Positions 18,155-21,559 of a stretch of 64,000 nucleotides of DNA are shown here, piece after piece. Each line of letters begins with the position of its first letter. Position 1 is the first letter of the stretch. The stretch spans positions 2,480,001 to 2,544,000 of the forward strand of contig NZ_CP101824.1 of assembly GCF_024498195.1 (NCBI RefSeq), written 5' to 3'. Below the pieces are notes generated by a model. It saw nothing but the letters and a program-made list of their open reading frames with translations. It made no database searches and was not told the DNA's origin. The translations under genes were made by a program, and so were the position numbers. This stretch comes from Halovivax cerinus (GTDB lineage: Archaea > Halobacteriota > Halobacteria > Halobacteriales > Natrialbaceae).

Positions 18155-18481
18155 CGAGGTACCCTGGGACGCGAGCGCCAAAGAGGGTTGGGTCGGCGGA
18201 GTGAAAGTGAACCTGTGTAGGCTCCATATACCGGCGCCCCGCGGACGCGATTGATTCGGTGCCCGCGGACGACCGAGCAGACGTAGACGTACCGGCGGAT
18301 CACGCACCTTCCCATTTTTAGATACATTGACTATCAATCGAAATTATTGTATTATACTCGCACAATGGGGAGATAGAACCTATAAATATAGGCGATATCG
18401 GTCTCCGGCGAAGTTTATAAAAAATAATAACTGGAGACAAATATTTATCGCCCCTACCAACCCACGTTCGACCGGGATACA
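18155..18481. other. Divergent intergenic region, AT-rich on the right
   Basis: About 330 nt between lhr and the DUF2589 operon. The right 170 nt (18310-18480) is much richer in A/T than the surroundings and contains several TATA-like runs (CCTATAAATATAGG near 18379, GTTTATAAAAAATAATAA near 18413, ATATTTAT at 18441). No ORF or structured RNA is evident. Such an island is unusual here and suggests a strong or regulated promoter, or chromatin control. Confidence 0.6.
18441..18448 (+). promoter_or_regulatory. Probable TATA box of the DUF2589 operon
   Basis: ATATTTAT preceded by purine-rich GGAGACAA (BRE-like) lies 34-41 nt upstream of the ATG at 18482, which allows a short-leader transcript. 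A stronger match to TTTATA lies further up at about 18414, so more than one start site is possible. Confidence 0.5.
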
Positions 18482-19084
18482 ATGGCAGACCCCGACTTTC
18501 CATCAGAACTGGGAAACATTCCGTACAGCAAGATACTCGGCGCACCGTTGAACGCGGCCGTGGAGGCCAACGCGGAGGCTTCGGAGACGGCGGCGCAGTT
18601 CATTCAGGACGTCGGATTCACAGAGACGGATAGCTTCGGCACGTTCGACGCCCAGCGCGAACCGGTCTACGTCACGTTCCACTACAAGAAGGACGCCACG
18701 AACACGGACGGGGAGGTCGAGACCCAGGAGTTCGAGATGAAGATTCCGCTCCTGCTGTTGCTCCACGTGCCCTACTTCGAAGTGAGCAACGTGACCGTCG
18801 ACTTCAACGTCTCGCTCAACTCGACGCACATGCGGCAGGTCGAAGAGGAGGGCGGCGGTGGTGGCAGCGTCGGCGGCCTGGTCGGCGGTATCATCGGTTT
18901 CAACGTCGGTGCCAGCTACCAGAAAACCGACAAGCGCCAGCAGAAGATCGAACGCAGTTACGACCAGTCCGTCCACATCGAGGCCGGGTCGATCGAATCT
19001 CCGGAAGGTGTCACGCGGCTGCTCGACGTCCTCGAACAGACGATCACGGAACAGTCCGAAGACGACGTCGAGACTCCCTCATAA
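18482..19084 (+). CDS. DUF2589 family protein (paralogue 1)
   Basis: A 200-aa member of the DUF2589 family, with no known biochemical role. Typical parts are the N-terminal amphipathic segment (LGAPLNAAVEANAEASETAAQFIQ), a beta-strand block VYVTFHYKK...EFEMKIPLLLLLHVPYF, then VTVDFNVSLNS, a Gly-rich linker (EEEGGGGGSVGG, near 120), GASYQKTDKR, and a closing helix LLDVLEQTITEQ. There is no signal peptide or true membrane helix; the Leu-rich strand is part of the beta fold. First gene of a four-gene operon; the next start is 22 nt after its stop. Confidence 0.82.
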   Translation: MADPDFPSELGNIPYSKILGAPLNAAVEANAEASETAAQFIQDVGFTETDSFGTFDAQREPVYVTFHYKKDATNTDGEVETQEFEMKIPLLLLLHVPYFEVSNVTVDFNVSLNSTHMRQVEEEGGGGGSVGGLVGGIIGFNVGASYQKTDKRQQKIERSYDQSVHIEAGSIESPEGVTRLLDVLEQTITEQSEDDVETPS

Positions 19085-19106
19085 TGCAACCGGGATGTGA
19101 TGATCG

Positions 19107-20048
19107 GTGACGGAGGAACTACAGAACCTCCCGCTGTCGGCGCTGTTTAGCGGTCCGCTGATCGCCGCGATCGACGCGAGCGTCGAGGCCCAGACGGAGA
19201 CCGTCGAACTCCTGCGCGAACACGGCTACGACGAGGCGGGCAATCTCGTCACGGTGACCTTCGGGTACACGACGACCGAATCCGACCCGGCGGGCGGCAC
19301 GCGCCGGGTGGCCAGAGAGATCGAGATTCCACTCCTGCTCTTTCTCTCCCTTCCCAACCTCGTGATCCACGAGATCGAAGAGGAGTTCTCGGCGAAGATT
19401 ACGAAGGTACAGAGTACAGAGGCCGAATCCGATAGCGTCGAACCCGCGTCTCGCCACCGCCTCACACCGATCCGGCCGCCGCGACTCCGCGTCACACCGT
19501 CCGACCAGGAGACGACGCTCGACCGCAAGACGCGCTCGACCTACGACCTGACCGTCCGGATGGTCGCGGAGCTGCGAAACGAGTCGGCGGGGATGGATCG
19601 ACTCGAACGGGTGGCTGCGACCGCCACGACCGACCGGATCGACGAGGCGCGAACCGAACAGCTTGCCGAGACGCGTCGTGAGGAAACCGACGGTGGCGGC
19701 CTGTCTCCGGTGCCCGGTCGCGATGGGACTGCGAGCCAACCGACGCCGGATGCGGACGCCACGGCTCCCGTTCGTACTCCAGCAACTCCCGACGAGTCCG
19801 ACGACGAGGGATCGGAGACGGGCGATCAGCTCGCGGGGCAGTCGGCCGATTCGGCCGATCGAGCGGTCGGCGATCCGTCGGAATACACCGTCTCCGAGCT
19901 TCGAGAGACGGTCGCCGAGGTGGACGATATCGACGACGCGCGGTCGCTCCTCGAGGCCGAGCGGACGGGTCGGAACCGAAAGACTGCTCGACGGGCCATC
20001 GAGCGTCGGATCGAACACCTTCGCGACGAGGAGGCGTCAGAAGAATGA
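19107..20048 (+). CDS. DUF2589-like protein (paralogue 2) with helical C-terminal extension
   Basis: The GTG start at 19107 gives 313 residues. Residues 1-110 repeat the plan of the upstream protein: LPLSALFSGPLIAAIDAS, VTVTFGYTTTE, EIEIPLLLFLSLPNL and VIHEIEEEFSAKI. They are followed by the strand STYDLTVRMVAEL and the helix MDRLERVAATATT. A long acidic, Pro/Ser/Thr-rich linker (about 190-250) leads to a C-terminal helical module (EYTVSELRETVAEVDDIDDA, ERTGRNRKTARRAIERRIEH). The stop overlaps the next ATG by 4 nt. The two paralogues may form a mixed assembly (inference). Confidence 0.78.
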   Translation: MTEELQNLPLSALFSGPLIAAIDASVEAQTETVELLREHGYDEAGNLVTVTFGYTTTESDPAGGTRRVAREIEIPLLLFLSLPNLVIHEIEEEFSAKITKVQSTEAESDSVEPASRHRLTPIRPPRLRVTPSDQETTLDRKTRSTYDLTVRMVAELRNESAGMDRLERVAATATTDRIDEARTEQLAETRREETDGGGLSPVPGRDGTASQPTPDADATAPVRTPATPDESDDEGSETGDQLAGQSADSADRAVGDPSEYTVSELRETVAEVDDIDDARSLLEAERTGRNRKTARRAIERRIEHLRDEEASEE

Positions 20049-21070
20049 CCGAACTGACCCGATTCCTCGCCGCGTTGTACGATTCGTTCTCGGAGGCGGA
20101 GATGCAGGCTCAGGAGCACGGCCGCAGGCGCTACCTCGAACTCCTCGAGACGGGAGCGATCCCGAAGGACGGTGCGGTCCCCGTTTACCACGCGGCCGAC
20201 GCGAGCGTCACACTCGACGTCGGACTCGCGGCCGAAGAGACCAAACACGGGACGGAAATCTACATCACCGAACCGACGGAGGGAGACGAGTCGGGGCTGA
20301 CGTTCACCGTCGAACTGTTCGACCTGGTCGACATCGACGACTTCGAGAACCTGGAGTACGAGGACGTACTGGACGATGGGGTACCGCCCGGTCGTTCGCG
20401 TCCGGGTGGACCCGGTGGCGGGCCGATTGGCGACATCGAGAGCCAGTCGGTGGACGCCGTCCGCGGGATCGGCCCGGAATTCTCGAACGATCTCGAGGCG
20501 GCTGGCGTCGAGTCGATCGCCGACCTCGTCGTCCACTCGCCCGAGGAACTGGCCGAGATCGTCAGTGAAGAGGGCGGCGTCGTCTCGCCCGATCGCGCGA
20601 GCGACTGGATCGAACAGGCTCGCGGGATGATTGCGGTCCTCTCCGGGGGCGCCCAGCCGGTCGAGTTCGTCGACGATATCGGACCGGCCTACGGGAGTCG
20701 CCTCCGTGAACACGGGATCGAGACGCTCTCGGAACTGGTCGATCGCTCACCCGACGAGGTCGCAGACCTGGTCAGTACCGCGTCCCGCTCGATCTCGACC
20801 GATCGGACCGGCGAGTGGCTCGCGGCGGCCGAGGATCTCCTCGCAGAGTTGGAACAGACCGAGGCGGACGTGGCGGAGCGCTCGTCCGACGAACCGGGAG
20901 AGAGTGATGCATCCCCACCGACCGACGATTCGGCCATGACGTCGGCGGAGCGTGAATCGACCGACGAAACCGGGATGATCGACGAAACTGAGACGACCGG
21001 CGACCCCGAGACGAACGACGACGCAGAGACGATCGGCGAAACGGAGACGACCGACGACGAAGAACGATGA
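20045..21070 (+). CDS. DUF2589-operon protein with tandem helix-hairpin-helix domains
   Basis: A 341-aa protein. Residues 1-110 carry an amphipathic helix and strands (AVPVYHAADASVTLDVGLAA, FTVELFDLVDI) that look like a partner of the DUF2589 fold. Residues about 138-200 and 205-262 are two helix-hairpin-helix modules (VRGIGPEFSNDLEAAGVESI; VDDIGPAYGSRLREHGIETL) of the DUF4332/GxGxxxA type, suggesting DNA or protein binding. The tail (about 275-341) is a Thr/Glu/Asp repeat. Overlaps its neighbours by ATGA on both sides, so it is tightly coupled. Confidence 0.75.
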   Translation: MTELTRFLAALYDSFSEAEMQAQEHGRRRYLELLETGAIPKDGAVPVYHAADASVTLDVGLAAEETKHGTEIYITEPTEGDESGLTFTVELFDLVDIDDFENLEYEDVLDDGVPPGRSRPGGPGGGPIGDIESQSVDAVRGIGPEFSNDLEAAGVESIADLVVHSPEELAEIVSEEGGVVSPDRASDWIEQARGMIAVLSGGAQPVEFVDDIGPAYGSRLREHGIETLSELVDRSPDEVADLVSTASRSISTDRTGEWLAAAEDLLAELEQTEADVAERSSDEPGESDASPPTDDSAMTSAERESTDETGMIDETETTGDPETNDDAETIGETETTDDEER

Positions 21071-21393
21071 CAGGAAACCTTGGAACCTACTTCGAGCAGT
21101 TGACGATGAGCGATCGAGCCGAACTCGAGACGCGCCTCGAACGCTACCGCGATCAACTCGAGGCACAGGGGTACGAAGCGACGGTCGCGGAGGGCGAGAA
21201 CGGCTTCTTCGCCGGCGTCCTGGTTATCGACGACGAGGGTGGCCGCTTCGGCTTTCTCGAACCGGACGGCAGTGTCACCTGGATTGGCGGCGACAACGAG
21301 GGCATCGGTGCCTTGGGGACGGCTGTCGCACAGAACCCGACCGAAGAACTCGCGCAGGACCCGGACGGGCTCGAGAACGTCGACGTCGAGTGA
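21067..21393 (+). CDS. Small acidic protein closing the DUF2589 operon
   Basis: A 108-aa protein starting at an ATG that overlaps the previous stop. It has an N-terminal helix (MSDRAELETRLERYRDQLEA), then strands containing FFAGVLVIDDEGGRFGFLEPDGSVTWIGG, and an acidic C-terminus. No family with known function is recognised. The coupling implies equal expression with the HhH protein; a chaperone or antitoxin-like role would be speculation. Confidence 0.7.
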   Translation: MTGNLGTYFEQLTMSDRAELETRLERYRDQLEAQGYEATVAEGENGFFAGVLVIDDEGGRFGFLEPDGSVTWIGGDNEGIGALGTAVAQNPTEELAQDPDGLENVDVE

Positions 21394-21559
21394 TCCGACG
21401 AGACGAGCGGGAGGCGGATGAGACGAACCCGGCCGAGACGGCGGTGCTCGTCGGCATTCGGACACTGGCGTCGGTCAGGCGGCGACGAATGGGCACCCTC
21501 GGAGTCTCCGTCCCGATGCCGTCGGAACGTTTTTCCACGATCCGTTCCGATATCTCCGT

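Follow-up and report, generated by a model that had tools for sequence, protein, structure and literature searches.

What might four closely packed genes do for a haloarchaeal cell when the family to which two of them belong, DUF2589 (PF11655), carries no assigned role? This question is raised by an operon of Halovivax cerinus, whose genes A, B, C and D form one transcription unit on the plus strand at positions 18482-21393 of the window, i.e., the whole stretch of 64,000 nucleotides (nt) of a haloarchaeal chromosome of 3.9 Mb that was analyzed here. The original prediction knew of no established function for DUF2589, and this holds for the literature searched: the Pfam entry gives none, and the one paper that mentions the family does so for an expression cluster in Archaeoglobus fulgidus (PMC3949148). 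The explanation that we favor, tentatively and at somewhat less than an even chance, is that the products assemble into a hetero-oligomer of soluble subunits, which would act at the envelope and serve lysis, egress or delivery.

A and B are DUF2589 paralogues that both score above the curated Pfam cut-off of 23 bits (Table 1) and are the sole DUF2589 genes in the genome. For the GTG start of B, a stop codon precedes any in-frame start further upstream. In C, a putative third-subunit region is followed by two helix-hairpin-helix (HhH) modules at residues of about 132-196 and 203-263 (HHH_5 match, 3.8e-11), with a GIGP motif in the first hairpin, and by an acidic tail. D is small and acidic and has no match in Pfam, NCBIfam, PADLOC or PDB; the isoelectric points (pI) of all four proteins lie between 4.0 and 4.5. 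The paralogy of A and B, the HhH modules of C and the character of D had been read correctly from the sequence. The tight coupling by overlaps of 4 nt (ATGA) is present at B/C and C/D, but not between A and B, which are separated by 22 nt.

Table 1. Features of the DUF2589 operon and its surroundings, in window coordinates.
Feature	Position	Strand	Description
Gene A	18482..19084	+	DUF2589 (PF11655), 200 amino acids, pI 4.2; Pfam 76.7 bits, 3.2e-21
Gene B	19107..20048	+	Second DUF2589 paralogue, 313 amino acids, GTG start; Pfam 49.2 bits, 9.3e-13
Gene C	20045..21070	+	341 amino acids; putative third subunit (residues 1-100), two HhH modules, acidic tail
Gene D	21067..21393	+	108 amino acids, small acidic protein, pI 4.05, without family
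Presence/absence cassette	18213..21525		~95 nt in its place in same-genus L197 (blastn of flanks); 3.3 kb
AT-rich stretch	18316..18480 (about)	+	GC 0.41 in 18300-18499 versus about 0.65 around
Promoter core	18414..18449	+	TTTATA(t)AAAAATAATAA...TATTTATC; elements TTTATAAAAAATAATAA and TATTTATC

The distribution of these genes ties them together. DUF2589 is present in 11 of 292 surveyed Halobacteria, which belong to 4 of 77 genera, and all 11 carry the complete set A-B-C-D in the same order, which argues against chance. Searches with the other two proteins led to the same genomes: a search of 242 genomes with D alone recovered these 11 and added a single marginal hit, and the N-terminus of C was found in DUF2589 genomes only (9/194). 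Within the genus of the window, the operon occurs in four of five genomes. In the operon-less L197 the two flanks are adjacent and leave a clean empty site; as the entire segment is exchanged there for a short stretch (Table 1), the cassette has been gained or lost as one piece. We consider this co-distribution the strongest evidence that the proteins A-D would work together.

Beyond Halobacteria, a phylum survey yielded matches mostly in one family (f15), for which we infer the label Archaeoglobi and in which DUF2589 is near-universal. Here, A and B stand in tandem and precede a third subunit (C') of about 140-150 amino acids, while methanogen-like lineages have A and a third subunit of 230-250 amino acids. 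A scan of a genome collection gave 162 encoding stretches, of which the 80 that were kept span Pseudomonadota, Campylobacterota, Thermodesulfobacteriota, Myxococcota, Bacteroidota and Bacillota as well as Treponema, Cyanobacteria, Acidobacteriota and Hydrothermarchaeota; DUF2589 is also found on plasmids. Where a third subunit accompanies the pair outside haloarchaea, the orders A-B-C and A-C-B both occur. Two further layouts recur in bacteria, namely a DUF2589 pair with a protein of about 90 amino acids, seen at 44 loci, and a set of two or three DUF2589-type genes with a zinc-ribbon-like protein of about 70 amino acids (17-19 loci). In a tree of A proteins, which contains some long branches, haloarchaea stand beside methanogen-like lineages within a clade that also holds Archaeoglobi and a few A-C-B bacteria, and the proteins from phages group together in a single clade amid those from bacteria. 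What is new here is that the A-B pair, in many cases joined by a third subunit, extends to Archaeoglobi, to methanogen-like archaea and Hydrothermarchaeota, to bacteria of many phyla and to tailed phages. The multi-subunit assembly that had been suggested for the operon thus gains support from the co-distribution of its four genes, the gain or loss of the cassette as a whole and the recurrence of A-B(-C) across domains.

This core can be set beside what has been described. AF0414-AF0417 of A. fulgidus are described as short DUF2589-related genes that are expressed together and are reportedly induced on lactate (PMC3949148). They resemble the loci studied here in that Archaeoglobi-type loci have A-B-C' consecutively; they differ in that the third subunit has no HhH, D differs and a function was not assigned. 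A and B are likewise regular members of PF11655, whose entry contains neither the A-B-C operon nor the third-subunit family, D or a link to wall hydrolases. Three observations on individual loci may be added. The protein of about 90 amino acids after the bacterial pair (L123:8612-8887 and 43 other loci) has no family match and is a candidate conserved component. In two methanogen-like genomes (L076:9068-9361 and L077:9163-9489) only the N-terminal DUF2589 helix region is present, behind an apparent signal peptide and without A-B-C. In one Archaeoglobi-type genome (L059:8588-8979), B is split into two overlapping short open reading frames (ORFs) and may be disrupted or mis-sequenced.

Because it is patchy among Halobacteria, shows clean presence or absence and is found on phages and plasmids, the operon could also be taken for an anti-virus defense cassette, which would detect infection and then kill its host cell, with a wall hydrolase or another enzyme as the effector where one is present. 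We consider this improbable: there is no match to a PADLOC family, the near-universal presence in Archaeoglobi is unlike that of most defense genes, and the helicase and RNase Z-like genes that flank the operon stay in the genus with or without it.

We wondered how C relates to these subunits. Its N-terminus had been described as similar to DUF2589; however, C has no Pfam match to this family, and a profile comparison with the A family was not significant (probability 0.3%), which speaks against C as a third DUF2589 paralogue. A separate third-subunit family fits better, if weakly. The third subunits of Archaeoglobi and those of methanogens, Bacteroidota and Cyanobacteria are related (profile comparison, 97%, E=3e-11), and the N-terminus of haloarchaeal C shows a weak similarity to the latter family (E=0.0019, probability 14%, 62 columns from the first residue). 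The HhH modules behave differently from this N-terminal part. C accompanies A-B in 11 of 11 haloarchaeal genomes, but only 6 of the 11 orthologues contain HhH; in the other five, all from one other genus, a charged low-complexity tail and a short conserved end take its place, and consequently HhH is not essential. No HhH was found in the Archaeoglobi-type and bacterial third subunits examined either. Accordingly, a complex that is bound to DNA through the HhH modules of C, as the original prediction envisaged, is very improbable as a general role, even though the two modules and the GIGP motif would suit it.

Having delineated the core, we turned to the genes that surround it in bacteria. A near set of 150 same-strand neighbors within 2.2 kb of the DUF2589 genes, with at most two per sequence cluster, was compared with a far control set, for which 150 genes at a distance of 4 kb or more were drawn from the same loci. 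Of the 25 PHROG families that are most frequent in the near set, 14 are endolysins; in the far set, endolysins make up 2 of 25, with one member each. Frequent Pfam families of the near set comprise PG_binding_1 and PG_binding_3 (5 each) as well as Muramidase, Phage_lysozyme, GH25, GH108 and M15_4 (2 each), whereas no wall-hydrolase Pfam family has two members in the far set. Since head, tail or packaging families are not among the frequent neighbors in these scans, prophage residence alone does not explain the enrichment of hydrolases. Counted by locus, a same-strand candidate hydrolase lies within 3 kb in 38 of 83 bacterial and hydrothermarchaeal loci, or in about 34-35 when a Marinomonas binding-protein/permease and the uncertain DUF261 genes are left out; as the seeds for this count were drawn from the near genes, it is the near/far comparison that provides the independent test. 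The partners belong to at least 10 unrelated families, and many are separated by 8-85 nt from the neighboring DUF2589 genes. At hydrothermarchaeal loci, A-B-C' is directly followed either by an NlpC/P60-like gene (weak, E=0.0038; DCSAF motif) or by a SleB-like gene, recognized by eye only. This repeated juxtaposition of bacterial DUF2589 genes with unrelated wall hydrolases suggests an action at the envelope.

Some matches were not counted as partners: MltF-like genes in Vibrio, Helicobacter and Campylobacter loci lie on the opposite strand, and a Marinomonas gene matching the MltF seed is a binding-protein/permease. Separately, an Exo_endo_phos-type protein is encoded 3 nt after the small gene of one pair (L149:8850-9548), and a patatin-like gene lies upstream at another locus (L102:6278-7129).

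The pair also occurs in phages. It is found in B-A order on sixteen viral contigs, among them those of the true tailed phages L085 and L094. The order in L085 is Rz-like spanin, directly adjoining B, A and portal; in L094 portal and terminase genes lie near the pair, and L092 and L096-L098 have an endolysin-like gene (phrog_3000/33083) no further than about 1.2 kb away. Phage lysis cassettes and Type 10 secretion (holin/endolysin/spanin; e.g., in Yersinia entomophaga, PMC10847048) offer a comparison. The likeness is that bacterial and phage DUF2589 pairs adjoin endolysins that are exchangeable, and that the pair of L085 adjoins a spanin. The difference is that the DUF2589 proteins lack a clear transmembrane segment and do not match holins, and that an endolysin is missing from the haloarchaeal operon. 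L084 (MT839761.1), a 4-kb entry labeled an unverified bacteriophage, shows no phage structural gene; it consists of a DUF2589 A-C-B island that includes a zinc ribbon and an N-acetylmuramidase.

The variety of adjacent enzymes permits another interpretation, in which the DUF2589 proteins build a scaffold or polymer for packaging or escorting toxic enzymes, such as wall hydrolases and occasionally nucleases or lipases, that are directed against other cells, a role like that of R-bodies or secretion-system effector modules. Muramidase, GH108, M15, amidase, DUF2778-like, Exo_endo_phos and patatin proteins are indeed of many unrelated families, and in Chromobacterium subtsugae and Marinomonas MED121 the DUF2589 pair has genes for the R-body protein RebB (PF11747) within 8 kb (L156:9624-16519; L162:121-402). 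However, RebB is present in just 3 of 29 DUF2589 genomes, A and B have no RebB match in Pfam, and the haloarchaeal operon contains none, for which reason R-body membership was dropped as a general explanation. As there is moreover no common secretion marker among the frequent neighbor families and no recognized enzyme in the haloarchaeal and Archaeoglobi operons, we regard the carrier function as doubtful.

Returning to the envelope-acting hetero-oligomer, we asked what the predicted structure of A might contribute. An AlphaFold2 model based on 82 sequences (predicted local distance difference test (pLDDT) 75.7; predicted template modeling score (pTM) 0.60) comprises a long N-terminal helix (residues 15-45), four antiparallel strands in one sheet and a C-terminal helix; residues 117-153, a Gly-rich hairpin between strands three and four, are disordered and largely unmodeled. 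A Foldseek comparison of the model with the PDB gave no credible match (best E 0.34) and thus no solved pore-forming protein alike. Sequence searches of the PDB with A, the N-terminus of C, D and the A-family profile found nothing, and Foldseek against viral models returned one homologue only, itself likely DUF2589. Across the 82 A proteins, the hairpin is rich in Ser (21%) and its polar/apolar alternation at the beta angle exceeds that of shuffles (mean z 1.28, positive in 89%), although the ordinary strands of A alternate more strongly (z about 2.5). These data are compatible with membrane insertion of the hairpin and far from proof of it.

Taken together, the following mechanism may be envisaged. 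A and B, each with the DUF2589 fold and an exposed Ser/Gly-rich hairpin, C as the third subunit, here extended by HhH, and D as a lineage-specific accessory would form a hetero-oligomer. The subunits would assemble in the cytoplasm and then engage the membrane, perhaps via the alternating polar and apolar residues in the hairpin of A; insertion of this hairpin, or a pore step, is speculative. By opening or remodeling the envelope, the complex would let cell contents or cargo through. In bacteria and phages it would act with an interchangeable peptidoglycan hydrolase. Haloarchaea have no murein, and there the complex would be kept without a hydrolase, presumably for the same job.

Several findings weigh against this proposal. 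The haloarchaeal and Archaeoglobi operons contain no recognized hydrolase or other enzyme, and their functional analogy to the bacterial loci is consequently presumed. Fewer than half of the bacterial loci have a recognized hydrolase within 3 kb, and some bacterial neighbors are other enzymes, nuclease-like or patatin. Unlike holins, A-D lack clear transmembrane segments and signal peptides; the highest 19-residue hydropathy, 1.58, falls in a predicted strand of B. The Gly-rich hairpin of the window's own A lacks beta alternation (z -1.3), and a model of an Archaeoglobi-type A reached a pLDDT of 65 with a likewise disordered hairpin. Finally, near-universality in Archaeoglobi and induction of AF0414-AF0417 on lactate do not look like suicidal lysis; together with the hydrolase-less majority of bacterial loci, they are the strongest counter-evidence. 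The same archaeal observations, including the missing hydrolase, favor a constitutive envelope or metabolic complex of structural or regulatory nature that is unrelated to lysis and whose bacterial versions reside by chance in endolysin-rich islands. This is distinctly unlikely in our estimation, because endolysins are frequent nearby while head, tail and packaging genes are not, so that residence in prophages is insufficient, and because many hydrolase genes lie so close to the pair.

The remaining features of the locus concern its promoter and surroundings. The stretch before A had been called an AT-rich promoter island; it is AT-rich (Table 1), but what it holds is probably an ordinary haloarchaeal TATA-type promoter, as its core is kept in four genus members while the flanks vary. 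Upstream of A in these genomes, TTTATtAAAA.ATAATAA and TATTTATC are the sole well conserved blocks, the latter about 32 nt ahead of the ATG start codon of A. From the known promoter layout, the transcript would have a short leader or none (near-leaderless). The TATA region is also surrounded by an inverted repeat, GTCTCC/GGAGAC, which the genus does not conserve and which was discarded. The upstream flank, on the opposite strand, encodes an Lhr-like helicase, named by eye from its sequence; the RNase Z-like metallo-beta-lactamase downstream adjoins the operon in the window's own genus only. B carries, in addition to its DUF2589 part, a C-terminal helical module (19872-20045). A copy with 51% identity opens an EtfA-like ORF of 540 residues in the same genome (L209, G000:C1:2621709-2621867); this ORF resembles the alpha subunit of electron-transfer flavoprotein.

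What do these findings mean for the family? Archaeal, bacterial and phage genes that had been annotated separately are now tied together, and the partnership with hydrolases and the spanin neighbor in a phage provide a first testable functional direction for DUF2589. That A, B and C represent an undescribed class of envelope-opening machine, common to archaea, bacteria and phages and based on a fold without a solved relative, in which soluble subunits assemble, an amphipathic hairpin is inserted and any wall hydrolase can be plugged in where murein has to be cut, with the haloarchaeal operon as its murein-free form, is an extension that we consider unlikely as it stands; it would make lysis or egress in archaea, in the absence of any known holin, a testable matter. 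Should no role of the lysis or egress type emerge, the DUF2589 family would fit no characterized kind. If the envelope-acting hetero-oligomer is correct, DUF2589 would constitute a new protein family for lysis, egress or delivery and offer a handle on how the envelope is opened in archaea that have no murein.

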